Source: Sulfurovum sp. XGS-02
GTDB taxonomy: Bacteria > Campylobacterota > Campylobacteria > Campylobacterales > Sulfurovaceae
Direction of reading: 5' to 3'
DNA: 64,000 nucleotides
Assembly (NCBI RefSeq): GCF_023213175.1
Contig: NZ_CP093312.1
Span: forward strand, 372,001-436,000
Shown here: piece by piece, positions 12,792-61,883 of the stretch
Layout of the letters: every line of letters begins with the position of its first letter
Numbering within the stretch: position 1 is the first letter of the stretch
Notes under the pieces: model-generated
Database searches by the model: none
What the model was told of the DNA's origin: nothing
What the model saw: the letters and a program-made list of their open reading frames with translations, nothing else
Position numbers and translations under genes: made by a program

Positions 12792-13325
12792 TTATTTGGC
12801 TGTTTTGGAGAGTTGAGAGATGAGTTCTTCGAGTGACGCTTCTGGAAGCATACCTGCTTGTACAAACTGTACATCACCTTTCGTGTCCATGGCTACCAGG
12901 AAAGGAATACTCCCTCTCCATTGTGCTCTTTGCTGAATATAGTTTACCAATTCAGGTGCTTTCTCTTCGGAGACCACAATGTAGTTCATCCCTTTCTCTT
13001 TTGCAAAGGCTTTGACCTCTTCATGGGTATAGCCTTGTACTTCGATAGAGACAATGGCCAATGTCTCTTTATATTTTTCTTGAAGCTTGATTAAATGTGG
13101 AATGGAAGCGAGGCAAGGGGGACATTTATGTCCGAAAAATTCTAAAAATATGACTTTCCCTTCAAGGCCCTTAATGTTCAGACCCTGCTCTGTACCTGAG
13201 ACATCATAAGTTTTCCCCATGATGTCAGTCATGGTCATTTCTGCTAAATACCTTTTATCTTCAGCTGCGTGTGCATAGGTGAAGAGTGACAAGAGCAGAA
13301 GGGATATGGTGAATAATTTTTTCAT
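12792..13325 (-). CDS. TlpA/ResA-like exported thioredoxin
   Basis: This 177-residue protein has a clear signal peptide (about 1-20, MKKLFTISLL..AHA). The thioredoxin-like fold carries a CPPC active site (C68-P-P-C71) in FFGHKCPPCLASIPHL, the style of TlpA/ResA peroxiredoxin-related reductases. It should act in the periplasm, reducing disulfides, for example during cytochrome c maturation. It is convergent with dprA and adjacent to a 482-bp noncoding gap. It has no operon partner, so the target is unknown. Confidence 0.85.
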   Translation of the reverse strand: MKKLFTISLLLLSLFTYAHAAEDKRYLAEMTMTDIMGKTYDVSGTEQGLNIKGLEGKVIFLEFFGHKCPPCLASIPHLIKLQEKYKETLAIVSIEVQGYTHEEVKAFAKEKGMNYIVVSEEKAPELVNYIQQRAQWRGSIPFLVAMDTKGDVQFVQAGMLPEASLEELISQLSKTAK

Positions 13326-13409
13326 AAAATGTGCCTTTATAGATGATTTTATAGATTATACACATTATACATTATGAAGATGTAAAAATCGTGTAATTGG
13401 TTCGATTTT

Positions 13410-13528
13410 ATCAAAAAGATTTTTTCAAAGAGCACCATAGTTATGTAAAAGGGGAGGGAAAAATGATATGAGAGACAGACCTAATAAATATCAGGGGAGA
13501 GAAGTCCATCTCTTTATGATGCTCTTGT
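13410..13528 (-). ncRNA. Predicted small RNA, tandem unit 1 (192-bp repeat)
   Basis: This is one of two repeat units spaced exactly 192 bp apart. On the minus strand a TATAAT (13540-13535) would start an RNA near 13528. It begins ACAAGAGCATC, whose AAGAGCA-c-C-ATA pairs with TAT-GG-TGCTCTT-type sequence at 13428-13439 (12 positions, one mismatch, closing stem 13428-13439/13515-13526). Single-stranded C-rich segments (CTCTCCCCTGA and CCCTCCCCTTTT) lie inside. The tail after the stem reads TTTGAAAAAATCTTTTT. gttaacctt upstream of the -10 is shared with unit 2. Strand is inferred from the -10 boxes and the coincidence of the predicted start with the stem. No known RNA family was recognised. Confidence 0.5.
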
Positions 13529-13599
13529 AAAAGTATTATAATGATATAAGGTTAACTGAATACTAATAGAAGAAAACATTATAAATAAAAAGGGATAAA

Positions 13600-13720
13600 A
13601 ATAGATTAAGTATTTTTCTAAGAGCATCTTTGGGACAAGGAGAAAATGTTTTTAAAAGGAGTCCTAAAATACTTTATAAAAGGGAGGGGGAAGATTTTAG
13701 GTGTCCCTCGATGCTCTTGT
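13600..13720 (-). ncRNA. Predicted small RNA, tandem unit 2 (192-bp repeat)
   Basis: This is the second unit. A minus-strand TACACT (13732-13727) sits exactly where unit 1 has TATAAT, placing the start near 13720, again at ACAAGAGCATC. The fold is strong: a closing stem of 9 bp (13620-13628/13710-13718), then 6 bp (GGGACA 13632-13637/TGTCCC 13702-13707), then 8 bp (CCTAAAAT 13663-13670/ATTTTAGG 13694-13701). The last encloses a loop holding CTTCCCCCTCCCTTTT. The interior sequence differs from unit 1 while the closing stem and C-rich loop are kept, which is how a conserved structured RNA behaves. The final function is unknown. C-rich loops could pair with Shine-Dalgarno regions. Confidence 0.5.
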
Positions 13721-13807
13721 AAGCGTAGTGTAATACAGGAAGGTTAACCGTATGCAAATAAAGAGTAGTTACACTATAATAGTAAGATAAAATAAAGGAT
13801 ATTTTTT

Positions 13808-14896
13808 ATGATAAAAAAATTTTTATGGCTGGGTCTGTTTTTCTTTACGTATACATGGGCACAAGAGTTGTCTCTTGAAAAAAGAATAGGCCAAATGCTT
13901 ATGGTCGGTTTTCATGGTACACATGCATCCAAAGAGAGTCAGATCTGTAAAGATATAGAAGCTTATAACCTCGGAGCGGTGATTTTATTTGATTATAACC
14001 CGGTAGATAAAAATAAACCAAAGAATATTGCCACAAAAGAACAACTGGCCACTCTGACCAAAGAACTGCAGGCATGCAGCAGGGATGGGAAACTGCTCAT
14101 CGCTGTAGACCAGGAGGGAGGAAAGGTACAGCGACTTAAAAGCAAATACGGTTTTTACGGTAGATTTCCCAAAGCTTCAGATGTGATCAAAATGGATCAA
14201 AATAAAATAAAAGAGACCTATATAAAAATGAGTGAAGAACTCAGCAGTGTAGGGATCAATTACGATCTTGCTCCTGTCGTGGATCTGGATATCAACAGGA
14301 AAAACCATGTCATTCATGGTTTAGGACGCTCCTTTGGAAAAGATCCTAAAGTAGTAGCTGCATATGCCTCTGCATTTATCAATGCGATGCACAGCAATGG
14401 TGTACTTACTTCCATCAAGCATTTTCCCGGACACGGCTCTTCGGTCGGTGACACCCACAAAGGTTTTGTGGATGTGACGAACCTTTGGCAAGAAACTGAA
14501 TTGGAACCGTATAGACTTTTAAAAGAGAAGGCAGATACCGTCATGGTTGCCCATGTTTTTAACCAAAAGATAGATGAAATCTATCCCGCCAGTCTCTCTT
14601 ACAAGACGATCACAAAGCTGCTGCGCTGGAAACTGGGCTATCATGGCGTGGTGATCACGGATGACCTTCAAATGGGTGCGATCAGTCAAAAGTATGGGTT
14701 GAAAAATACACTTAAACTGGCGATCAATGCAGGAGATGACATCTTGCTGATAGGAAATCAGCTTGATCCTAAAAAAACAGTCAGCACAAAAACACTGGTC
14801 GAGACGATCAAGTCACTGGTGCAAAGCGGAGAGGTGACAGAGGAGCATATAAACAAAGCATATAAGAGAATTCAGGGATTAAAGAAGAGACTTTAG
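13808..14896 (+). CDS. GH3 beta-N-acetylglucosaminidase (NagZ-like, exported)
   Basis: This 362-residue protein has an N-terminal signal peptide (about 1-18), so unlike cytoplasmic NagZ it is likely periplasmic or lipid-anchored. Glycoside hydrolase family 3 motifs are intact: DQEGG at 101-105, KHFPGHG at 204-210, GDTH at 214-217 (the Asp-His acid/base dyad of NagZ enzymes) and TDDLQMGA at 284-291 with the nucleophilic aspartate. It should release N-acetylglucosamine from peptidoglycan fragments. It lies between dprA and ruvX, genes that are adjacent in Campylobacter as I recall. It converges on ruvX with only 4 bp between them. Confidence 0.9.
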   Translation: MIKKFLWLGLFFFTYTWAQELSLEKRIGQMLMVGFHGTHASKESQICKDIEAYNLGAVILFDYNPVDKNKPKNIATKEQLATLTKELQACSRDGKLLIAVDQEGGKVQRLKSKYGFYGRFPKASDVIKMDQNKIKETYIKMSEELSSVGINYDLAPVVDLDINRKNHVIHGLGRSFGKDPKVVAAYASAFINAMHSNGVLTSIKHFPGHGSSVGDTHKGFVDVTNLWQETELEPYRLLKEKADTVMVAHVFNQKIDEIYPASLSYKTITKLLRWKLGYHGVVITDDLQMGAISQKYGLKNTLKLAINAGDDILLIGNQLDPKKTVSTKTLVETIKSLVQSGEVTEEHINKAYKRIQGLKKRL

Positions 14897-17652: not shown

Positions 17653-18504
17653 TTAACGGATCTCTGCAATAAACGCATCTTTTTGGATCTGTGTTCGGAT
17701 CTGTTCCAAAAGGGCTACGGCATCGGCTCTTTGTCTATAGGGCCCTATAAGAAGTTTGGTGATCTCTTTGCCATGGAGAGGAAATGCGATGAGTTTATAG
17801 TGGTATCCTGCTCTTGTAATTTTATGAAGCAAAGCATCCTGCGGTCTTCCGGAGAAGGAACCCACCTGTACATAAAAATTACCTAAGCCATGTTTCTGCG
17901 TGACTTTAGGCAACGCAGTGACAGGATCAACCTTGGCCTTTAAAGTCTCTTTTGTTTTCCATGGTTTGGTGTTGTCCATTGCGATCTTTTCTTTTGCATC
18001 AGGCAGATATCTTCGACAGATACGCAGTCTTTTTTTATAATAGGGTGAGGTATTGAGATTGGAGTAGACGATCTCGTATTCGGTGGTGCTTGCATGGGTA
18101 AACCAGCCGTTCCCCAGGTACATACCTACATGGGTGATGTTACCTTTGGGATGTTTCTCTGTATCAAAGAAGATCAGGTCACCATAGACCAGCTCATCCA
18201 TTTTGATCTCATTCCCGTTTTTTGCCTGCTCTCTGGCAACACGTGGTATCTCAATGCCCATACTGCCGTAGAGATAGTAGGTAAATCCGGAACAGTCAAA
18301 CTGATCAGGCCCTTCCTCTGCCCACACATAGGGCTTCCCCTGGAGTTCTTTCACCATTTTGTCAAGATTCTCTTTAGTGGGTTCACACTTTATCATAGGT
18401 TTTTGAATCGCATAATTGGGATTTTTAGGATGAGGATCGGGTTTACACCCGTTAAACAGAAGTATGAGTGTAAAAGTGAAGGAGAGAGAGGTGATCTTTT
18501 TCAT
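17653..18504 (-). CDS. NlpC/P60 peptidoglycan hydrolase lipoprotein with SPOR domain
   Basis: The product is 283 residues from ATG 18504, chosen over a GTG 11 codons upstream because it begins a lipoprotein signal ending in LLFNGC. The NlpC/P60 domain has its catalytic cysteine in DQFDCSGFTYYLYG and histidine in THVGMYLGNGWFTHAS. A C-terminal SPOR domain (about the last 75 residues, starting NFYVQVGSF) should bind denuded glycan strands at the division septum. It probably cuts gamma-D-Glu-diaminopimelate bonds during cell separation. It is preceded by a closely related gene without SPOR. Confidence 0.87.
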   Translation of the reverse strand: MKKITSLSFTFTLILLFNGCKPDPHPKNPNYAIQKPMIKCEPTKENLDKMVKELQGKPYVWAEEGPDQFDCSGFTYYLYGSMGIEIPRVAREQAKNGNEIKMDELVYGDLIFFDTEKHPKGNITHVGMYLGNGWFTHASTTEYEIVYSNLNTSPYYKKRLRICRRYLPDAKEKIAMDNTKPWKTKETLKAKVDPVTALPKVTQKHGLGNFYVQVGSFSGRPQDALLHKITRAGYHYKLIAFPLHGKEITKLLIGPYRQRADAVALLEQIRTQIQKDAFIAEIR

Positions 18505-18549
18505 GGTTTTACTATAAAAGCATACATTTAAATTCACTTGATGAACGCT

Positions 18550-19182
18550 TTAGCTCGGCACAGCTTTTTTAGGTAGTTTCATACCCGGTTGCCAGGGTGT
18601 CGTATAGCGTGAAGTCGTAATTTCCATCTTTTGTAAGGGGACATCGCAATTCATATATTTTGCACGTTCATCTTCACTCAAATAGCGTTTACATACTTTC
18701 ATACGTTTGACGTAGATGGGTTCTTTCTCAAAGTGACTGACAGTCACCTTTCTCTCTTTGCTGCTGGCATGCGCGAACCATCCATCCCCAAGATAGATAC
18801 CTACATGGTTGATCCTTTTACTTCTTTTGTTAGGCGGACCAAAGAAGATAAGATCACCGTAATGGAGGTTTTGAAAGGCCACTTTTTTCCCCATTTTTGC
18901 CTGTTCTCTGGCTACACGGGGGATATCTATCCCCATGGAACCGTAAATATTATAGGTAAGCCCTGAACAATCAAAGGCATATGGGCCTTCTTCTGCCCAG
19001 ACGTAAGGTTTCCCAAGATAAGAGTAGAGTAGTTCTTGAATGTTATTTCTGTTGGGACTACAGGTTTTTTCAGGTTTGATGATGTCATAATTGGGATAGC
19101 TGTAGGGCTTCTTCTGTGCACACCCGTTCAAAAGAAACAGGGTTGAAATGAACAATAAAATATATTCCCCTCTCACTTTCAC
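18550..19182 (-). CDS. NlpC/P60 peptidoglycan hydrolase lipoprotein
   Basis: This 210-residue protein has a lipoprotein signal (FLLNGC near 16-21). The NlpC/P60 catalytic cysteine lies in YAFDCSGLTYNIYG and the histidine in NHVGIYLGDGWFAHAS. It shares long identical stretches with the downstream gene (for example YGSMGI, IPRVAREQAK and KPYVWAEEGP), so the pair arose by tandem duplication. This copy lacks the SPOR domain. It starts 12 bp after queA ends and is probably co-transcribed with queA, tatC and tatB. Confidence 0.87.
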   Translation of the reverse strand: MKVRGEYILLFISTLFLLNGCAQKKPYSYPNYDIIKPEKTCSPNRNNIQELLYSYLGKPYVWAEEGPYAFDCSGLTYNIYGSMGIDIPRVAREQAKMGKKVAFQNLHYGDLIFFGPPNKRSKRINHVGIYLGDGWFAHASSKERKVTVSHFEKEPIYVKRMKVCKRYLSEDERAKYMNCDVPLQKMEITTSRYTTPWQPGMKLPKKAVPS

Positions 19183-60368: not shown

Positions 60369-61883
60369 ATGAACAAGGGAAGAATAAAAATTAGTTTAGC
60401 GGCATCAGTGCTGTTATGTATGGGTACATCTGCGATGGCAGGTGGAGATATTGCACCAGTTGAACCGGTAGTAGAGGTTAAAAAAGACACACCTAAACGC
60501 AAACTCAAAGGTAATATGACTGTTGTATATAACACTTTACCAGGAAGCGTTGACAATATCCGTGATATGTTTGGTGAAGGTATCTTTTATGGAAGACTCA
60601 GATCAAATACATTCTACTGGGATTGGGATGATGAAGCAGCCGGTGAAGATAATCAAGCTTGGGGTCTAGGTGGAAGCCTTATCTATAAATCAGCTGTATT
60701 GGACGGGTTTAGCTTTACGATGGGCTATTACGGTTCTTTAAATCCTGATTTCTTTAGAGAGGATGATGCGGATATAGGATTCGTAAAAGCTGGTAAAGAT
60801 ACATTCAGCAGATATAAAGTGAAGCATACAGGTGCTTACGGTATGTCAGTACTCGGTCAGGCATATTTGGAATACAACAATGGTACAGTAGATGCGAAAG
60901 CAGGTCGCCAATTGTTTGAATCAGTATTTACGGCTTCAAATGACACAAAAATGATTCCAAATACCTTTGATGGTATTTCTGTCAGTGCAAAAGTAGCATC
61001 AAAAACTACAGCAAGAGTAGCTTGGTTCGCTAAACAAAAATTGAGAGACCATGAAGATGCGCATGATGTTGTGACATTTAAGGATGCTGCAGGTGATAGC
61101 TGGGGTAACAATGATGATGCTGGTGTTCACAAAGGACTTACTTATGCAAACTTCGTAGCTGCTGGTGAAGATCCGAACCATGATATGTTCTTAGGGGATA
61201 TCAAGACAAAAGCGATAGACAATTTAGACTTTACTTTAAGTGCTTTAACAGTGCCTGATGTCGTGACAGATATTGTGGCTGAAGCACACTACAGATTCAA
61301 CCTGGATAACGGTTGGGCAGTAAGACCTGGTGTGAGATATTTCCATCAAATGGATGATGGTGGCGGAGCAGTAGGTGGCGCTAACCTTAAAGCCAATGAA
61401 GTTGGTTATGATGCAGGTGCAGTAGGTTCACTTGATTCTAGCCTTTTCTGTGCAAGAGCTGACCTTGAAATGCCAAACAAAAAAGGTTACTTTAGACTTG
61501 GTTACTCAAAAGTGGCTGATGAAGCGGATATCTTGGCTCCATGGAGAGGATTCCCTACGGGTGGATTTACAAGAGCAATGGCACAATATAACTGGCAAGC
61601 AAATACAGAAACATTCATGGCAAGAGCACACTATAAGTTCAACTCTACATGGACAGCAAGTTTAAGATATGCGATTCAAGATTTTGATGATACTAAACCT
61701 GGTACGCAGGCTGACAGTAATGTATGGCACTTGGATACTTGGACAAATATCACAAAAAGACTTCAAATGAGAACACGTATCGGTATTATTACTGCTGATG
61801 ATGATATTGTAACGACTGGTGGTGGACTTAAAACAGATGTTTCTTATAACGAGTATCGTTTAGAGTTTAACTACCTTTTCTAG
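60369..61883 (+). CDS. Outer-membrane porin, OprD-like (Epsilonproteobacteria type)
   Basis: This 504-residue protein has a signal peptide (about 1-23). Alternating aromatic and polar strands run through it (for example GFSFTMGYYGSLNPDFF and RARAHYKF-like segments). The final residue is phenylalanine in LEFNYLF, a signal for outer-membrane insertion. It probably forms a beta-barrel for anion or small-solute entry. The location directly after sox and before sulfur genes suggests thiosulfate or sulfur-compound uptake, an inference. It has its own promoter with a palindromic operator. Confidence 0.82.
   Translation: MNKGRIKISLAASVLLCMGTSAMAGGDIAPVEPVVEVKKDTPKRKLKGNMTVVYNTLPGSVDNIRDMFGEGIFYGRLRSNTFYWDWDDEAAGEDNQAWGLGGSLIYKSAVLDGFSFTMGYYGSLNPDFFREDDADIGFVKAGKDTFSRYKVKHTGAYGMSVLGQAYLEYNNGTVDAKAGRQLFESVFTASNDTKMIPNTFDGISVSAKVASKTTARVAWFAKQKLRDHEDAHDVVTFKDAAGDSWGNNDDAGVHKGLTYANFVAAGEDPNHDMFLGDIKTKAIDNLDFTLSALTVPDVVTDIVAEAHYRFNLDNGWAVRPGVRYFHQMDDGGGAVGGANLKANEVGYDAGAVGSLDSSLFCARADLEMPNKKGYFRLGYSKVADEADILAPWRGFPTGGFTRAMAQYNWQANTETFMARAHYKFNSTWTASLRYAIQDFDDTKPGTQADSNVWHLDTWTNITKRLQMRTRIGIITADDDIVTTGGGLKTDVSYNEYRLEFNYLF

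Follow-up and report, generated by a model that had tools for sequence, protein, structure and literature searches.

Why should a 482-bp noncoding gap (13326-13807) hold two hairpins of the same design, facing the same way and exactly 192 bp apart? The gap lies in a 64,000-nucleotide stretch of the Sulfurovum sp. XGS-02 genome (2.19 Mb, a single contig), hereafter the window, between a thioredoxin-like (tlpA-like) and a glycoside hydrolase 3 (nagZ-like) gene. An earlier note, made from the letters alone, had proposed a duplicated small RNA (sRNA) gene on the minus strand whose C-rich loops could pair with ribosome-binding sites (RBSs). The duplicated minus-strand gene is borne out, with both units in one genus-wide family whose stems change in a compensatory way, whose promoter block stands on one strand only and whose copy number varies, and we hold it to be nearly certain that the RNA gene itself is real. 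Judged from sequence, the family is genuine and new, spans the genus and belongs to a functional kind already known among sRNAs; its members are probably antisense RNAs that act in trans without Hfq, come in several copies and bear redundant anti-Shine-Dalgarno (anti-SD) motifs.

Structure, covariation and distribution of the RNA

The coordinates given in the earlier note all proved correct: aagagcacc/aagagcatc (13428/13620), gatgctcttgtaa (13518/13710) and aaggttaac (13548/13740) each recur, read directly, at an offset of exactly 192, and a repeat search returned a 51-nt direct repeat (13518-13568/13710-13760) with 75% identity at the same spacing. Each unit has the 99-base hairpin closed by complementary arms, and its -10 box (TATAAT or TACACT) stands 7 nt ahead of the start of the closing arm (Table 1). 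Thermodynamically, the minus strand of unit 2 folds at -28.3 kcal/mol (z -4.1, with none of 200 shuffles equally stable) through three nested stems, of 9, 6 and 8 bp as claimed, and three further pairs, and that of unit 1 at -24.4 kcal/mol (z -2.35) through a 12-bp closing stem and an inner hairpin, whereas the plus-strand folds stand out less (z 0.0 and -2.0 for units 1 and 2). The closing stem (9-12 bp) pairs the 5' with the 3' end and so encloses the interior, which is laid out as one inner hairpin and a lateral single strand on the 3' side that bears C/U-rich motifs.

Evolutionarily, compensatory changes were sought in related genomes and found, with double changes in 15 of the 20 stem pairs over 49 units, in an alignment that was fitted to the structure and whose counts are inflated by kinship among its rows. 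In the same alignment, 93.9% of cells are paired; shuffling lowers this to 77%, and sliding the partners to 42.7-50.7%. The covariation score of 0.471 compares with 0.163 when shuffled and at most 0.133 with slid partners. Examples are GCAUC/GAUGC becoming GCAUU/AAUGC, and GAGCAUC becoming GAGUAUC together with GAUACUC. A MAFFT alignment built without the structure (A1) gives the same trend with less power. Given this conservation and covariation, the pattern of repeat and hairpin exceeds chance. Repeated DNA with no RNA gene in it (the remnant of a mobile element, a decayed gene or small open reading frames, ORFs) would account for the direct repeats and for a 33-codon frame with an RBS on the plus strand of unit 2, but is scarcely credible beside the compensatory changes, the conserved promoter block and a synteny fixed across the genus. 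Small ORFs were also considered on either strand, and any one frame is open throughout in at most 8 of 45 units.

Used as a DNA query, unit 2 matched 37 of the 78 genomes of the genus, and these loci, read for shared architecture, have in their 5' part an upstream element (ATTAGTATTCRGTTAACCTT or ATTTGCATACGGTTAACCTT), a TATAAT-like -10 box and the closing arm CAAGAGCATC, followed by a variable interior with C/U-rich motifs and the closing arm GATGCTCTT. The covariance-model search that the earlier note had suggested was run with two models. The first, R1, was built from 18 sequences of the unit-2 type only, unit 2 being one of them; it matches unit 2 at 13616-13722 (96.5 bits) and unit 1 at 13424-13530 (46.4 bits, E about 1e-6), and it also recovers every other subfamily. 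Because a model built on the unit-2 type recovers unit 1, the two units are homologous and no chance likeness. The second, R2, combines RNA and promoter; it matches unit 1 at 13425-13567 (120.9 bits) and unit 2 with 105.3 bits, and places the RNA in 73 of the 78 Sulfurovum genomes, including 38 of the 40 near-complete ones, with 1-3 copies in each. One near-complete genome without the RNA probably has an assembly gap, since its tlpA lies near a contig end. A weak second match in another genome (G001, at 855224) was set aside, having by eye no clear closing stem.

Nearly all copies lie in the gap between the tlpA-like and nagZ-like genes and point towards tlpA; some genomes hold further copies about 3 kb off, in the gap from ilvC to a polysaccharide deacetylase gene and on the other strand. 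In a 399-genome sample of the order, the other genera showed no such RNA bar one weak match (L116), which was rejected since it sits inside a histidine kinase-like ORF. In a tree of 45 units, many of whose deeper forks are weak, the two window copies fall into different clades, unit 1 with unit 1 of a related genome (G075) and unit 2 with single-copy relatives. The duplication appears older than the species, as several neighbouring genomes hold the same pair of types.

The earlier note had recognised no family, and this holds: Rfam 15 gives no match in the window at gathering score and, in the gap, only four at chance level (E 3.5-7.9, far below gathering). Our literature search found no published description of the family.

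An exclusive promoter block and the neighbouring genes

Upstream of the closing arm, a 20-bp block at -40 to -21 is conserved at about 1-2 bits per position (40 units), followed by a 7-nt spacer that is practically unconserved and then by the -10 box; the conserved promoter block is present on the RNA strand only. In a pattern search of 41 genomes, every exact match to the element was a promoter of these RNAs, and matches with one mismatch occurred elsewhere at about the control rate. A wider regulon in the window's own genome was also looked for and rejected, with 145 matches at up to three mismatches and 144 for a reversed-pattern control. This exclusivity is compatible with a regulator dedicated to this RNA, or with an unusual class of promoter that would serve it alone; because the element is exclusive, such a regulator should be findable.

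Could the units instead act in cis, as a leader or control element from which transcription runs on into the adjacent tlpA-like gene? In the common locus they always lie upstream of that gene and share its orientation, and no terminator was found. We nevertheless judge a cis role improbable, given that a separate TATAAT-type promoter is visible directly before tlpA, that other genomes hold the extra copies after ilvC, on the other strand and about 3 kb off, and that the start regions of tlpA and nagZ pair poorly with the RNA (-4.6 and -7.5 kcal/mol), values on which both neighbours were also dismissed as targets of a trans-acting RNA.

Two further features of this neighbourhood were seen in passing. 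The promoter region of the tlpA-like gene (13360-13400, minus strand) contains a block, TTACACRATTTTTACA..GTGTATAAT, that is apparently conserved in the genus (relatives L016, L021 and L022) and includes the inverted repeat TACAC/GTGTA, perhaps the site of a further regulator. Several species carry (TTAGAAA)n heptanucleotide tandem repeats shortly upstream of their nagZ-like gene, possibly a sign of phase variation through repeat length.

Anti-Shine-Dalgarno motifs and a proposed mechanism

The interiors of the units differ, as the earlier note had observed, yet folding confirms that both retain internal pairing and an unpaired C-rich loop on the minus strand. Across the units the motifs take the forms CCCUCCC, CUCCUUUU, UCUCCUUUU, UUUCCUCCUUUU and CCUCCUUUU. 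CUCC occurs 122 times in 45 units, or 2.72 times per 100 nt as against 0.51 in flanks that partly overlap neighbouring units, and its mean unpaired probability is 0.93, compared with 0.57 for the interior; in unit 1 the CUCC motifs reach 0.93-0.99. Each unit retains one to four unpaired CUCC while the interiors diverge, and 43 of the 45 retain at least two. Because AUCA precedes it, the unit 1 stretch UUUUUCCCUCCCCUUUU is complementary to a Shine-Dalgarno (SD) sequence, a spacer and AUGAU. The corresponding pattern CAU-U(n)-CUCC, complementary to SD, spacer and AUG, is found in 19 of 45 units (2.5 in shuffles), an enrichment that is only suggestive because kinship among the units raises the reverse order as well (16 of 45). 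Pairing of the C-rich loops with RBSs, as the earlier note had proposed, is in line with the retained unpaired CUCC.

Functionally, each unit would be an independent minus-strand sRNA gene with its own promoter. Its product, an RNA of about 100 nt held by the stem that joins its ends, would display two or three anti-SD motifs on the inner hairpin and the 3'-side single strand, and these would pair with the G-rich RBSs of several mRNAs and so keep translation from starting, with no need for Hfq, which was not found in the 31 genomes searched. Redundant motifs and tandem copies may raise the dose and widen the target range. The features of a trans-acting sRNA that can be read from sequence are present, namely an own promoter, a conserved unpaired seed and no conserved ORF; we infer transcription, trans action on SD sequences, a dedicated factor at -40 to -21 and which genes are controlled. 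By analogy with known systems, the RNA should repress several mRNAs with G-rich RBSs.

Candidate targets were sought among the translation start regions in the window, with a choice of starts biased towards SD sequences. An OprD-type porin pairs strongly with unit 1 (-18 to -22.5 kcal/mol in this species and three close relatives), and it is the best plausible candidate target in the window.

Several points weigh against antisense action on RBSs in trans. No intrinsic terminator was found that would account for the 3' end, as only 2-4 U follow the closing stem. Window start regions pair only modestly better than coding controls (for unit 1, -10.1 vs -7.9 kcal/mol, p 0.009), and the porin pairing shows no clear co-conservation (-14.0 for own versus -13.3 for other pairs, permutation p 0.06), so that the porin is only a candidate. 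The CUCC-rich loops could, moreover, bind a protein instead.

RNAs of the CsrB type titrate the protein CsrA, and short repeated loop motifs (one to four CUCC per unit) on freely diverging stems are the layout of such a decoy, here for a protein or the ribosome and with no mRNA pairing. Against this, the SD core is exactly complementary to CUCC/CCUCC, and we know of no sponge protein in this phylum that acts through C/U-rich loops. Those Campylobacterota sRNAs with C/U loops that have been characterised act by pairing with G-rich RBSs (PMC8687705). We consider a decoy unlikely, if less so than a cis leader. A bolder version of antisense action is a genus-wide single-locus RNA switch, in which a dedicated regulator that recognises the exclusive 20-bp element would turn on up to three RNAs that each mimic an antisense initiation region (AUCAU-UUU-CCUCC, the complement of SD, spacer and AUG) and serve as a general translation brake. 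We regard it as doubtful, though somewhat less so than the decoy; if true, it would mean that a broad class of mRNAs, not a few targets, is repressed at once.

Table 1 Coordinates of the predicted RNA units, their promoters and motifs, and of neighbouring and related features (window positions unless a relative locus is named)
Feature	Position	Strand	Details
Unit 1 RNA (predicted)	13425..13527	-	about 100 nt; 5' end near 13527; closing arms 13518-13527 and 13428-13436
Unit 2 RNA (predicted)	13617..13719	-	about 100 nt; closing arms 13710-13719 and 13620-13628
Unit 2 inner stems	within 13617..13719	-	GGGAC/GTCCC and CCTAAAAT/ATTTTAGG
Promoter element of unit 1	13548..13567	-	ATTAGTATTCAGTTAACCTT; -40 to -21 from closing arm
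-10 box of unit 1	13535..13540	-	TATAAT; in conserved -13 to -8 block
Promoter element of unit 2	13740..13759	-	ATTTGCATACGGTTAACCTT
-10 box of unit 2	13727..13732	-	TACACT; TATAAT, TACAAT or TATACT in relatives
Unit 1 C/U-rich anti-SD stretch	13447..13463	-	UUUUUCCCUCCCCUUUU; unpaired; kept in unit-1 relatives
Unit 1 second C/U-rich loop	13494..13503	-	UUCUCUCCCC; unpaired
Unit 2 hairpin-loop motif	13678..13690	-	CCCCCUCCCUUUU; unpaired probability 1.0
Unit 2 anti-SD motif	13654..13661	-	CUCCUUUU; unpaired probability 0.99
Unit 2 anti-SD motif	13637..13642	-	CUCCUU; unpaired probability 1.0
Thioredoxin-like (tlpA-like) gene	12792-13325	-	Pfam Redoxin/AhpC-TSA; bounds the gap; same strand as both RNA units
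Glycoside hydrolase 3 (nagZ-like) gene	13808-14896	+	bounds the gap; strand opposite to both RNA units
OprD-type porin, candidate target	60369-61883	+	start region TAAAAGGGGTAAAAAATGA, with TAAAAGGGGTAAAAAATG; strong pairing with unit 1
Extra copies, ilvC/polysaccharide deacetylase gap	L061 5527-5807; L075, L078, L092, L095 near 1500	opposite	relative loci
(TTAGAAA)n repeats	L016 1660-1690; L022 1441-1500; L038 86-140		relative loci

Elsewhere in the window, two adjacent and similar lipoprotein-type genes, NlpC/P60-like, lie on the minus strand (17653-18537 and 18550-19182), apparently a tandem duplication.

Comparison with known small RNAs

The sRNAs of Epsilonproteobacteria have been described as species-specific, 6S excepted (PMC3847290). 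The RNA reported here is conserved at one locus across almost the whole genus and is diverse enough for its structure to be read from compensatory changes, and with a covariance model in hand the family can be annotated. A closing stem between the 5' and 3' ends is shared with 6S RNA, and Rfam 6S (RF00013) matches nothing in this genome, which leaves the known 6S unaccounted for. It is nonetheless very improbable that the units encode a short RNA of the 6S type, with RNA polymerase as its partner: 6S measures 185 nt (range 160-200 nt), has a two-sided central bubble and lies upstream of purD in this phylum, whereas here about 100 nt carry a one-sided single strand, in up to three copies, with conserved CUCC instead of promoter mimicry.

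The same phylum has RepG of Helicobacter pylori and CJnc190 of Campylobacter jejuni (PMC8295292, PMC8687705), whose C/U-rich loops target a G-rich leader or RBS, CJnc190 doing so in a Campylobacterota species without Hfq and ProQ (PMC8687705). They differ in having one C/U loop each and another structure and locus, and CJnc190 in being processed by RNase III opposite an antisense RNA. CJnc230 of C. jejuni (98 nt, PMC11187230) likewise has a single-stranded stretch with an anti-SD CCUU, but two flanking stem-loops, RpoN dependence and another locus. The anti-SD strategy is known, but few such RNAs are known in this group of organisms.

Two further families show a likeness. LhrC1-5 of Listeria monocytogenes (PMC4132741) are multicopy RNAs of 111-114 nt, for which Hfq is dispensable and whose CUCCC..UUUU sites, three in number, are redundant; our units, too, carry several unpaired CU-rich (UCCC) motifs, and pairing of such motifs from loops or single strands with the SD sequence, a hallmark of LhrC, is predicted for them. 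Unlike them, LhrC has two successive stem-loops that end in a terminator hairpin, whereas here the ends pair and enclose everything and no terminator-like site is seen; LhrC copies are nearly identical, whereas the window copies differ strongly inside, and homology to LhrC is not evident. The alpha-r14 or 'cuckoo' RNAs (NfeR1, SmelA075/A099; PMC10746234, PMC3927594) also repeat an identical anti-SD motif in several unpaired regions while their stems diverge, NfeR1 with three such motifs (PMC10746234). These are RNAs of Alphaproteobacteria with another promoter, no enclosing stem and three (or four) separate hairpins that each bear CCUCCUCCC, in place of the one inner hairpin and lateral single strand seen here. 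Our best reading, by analogy, is that the Sulfurovum family works like LhrC or the rhizobial alpha-r14/NfeR1 RNAs and is homologous to neither, which would make it the third, apparently independent, design with multiple anti-SD motifs, in a group without detectable Hfq.
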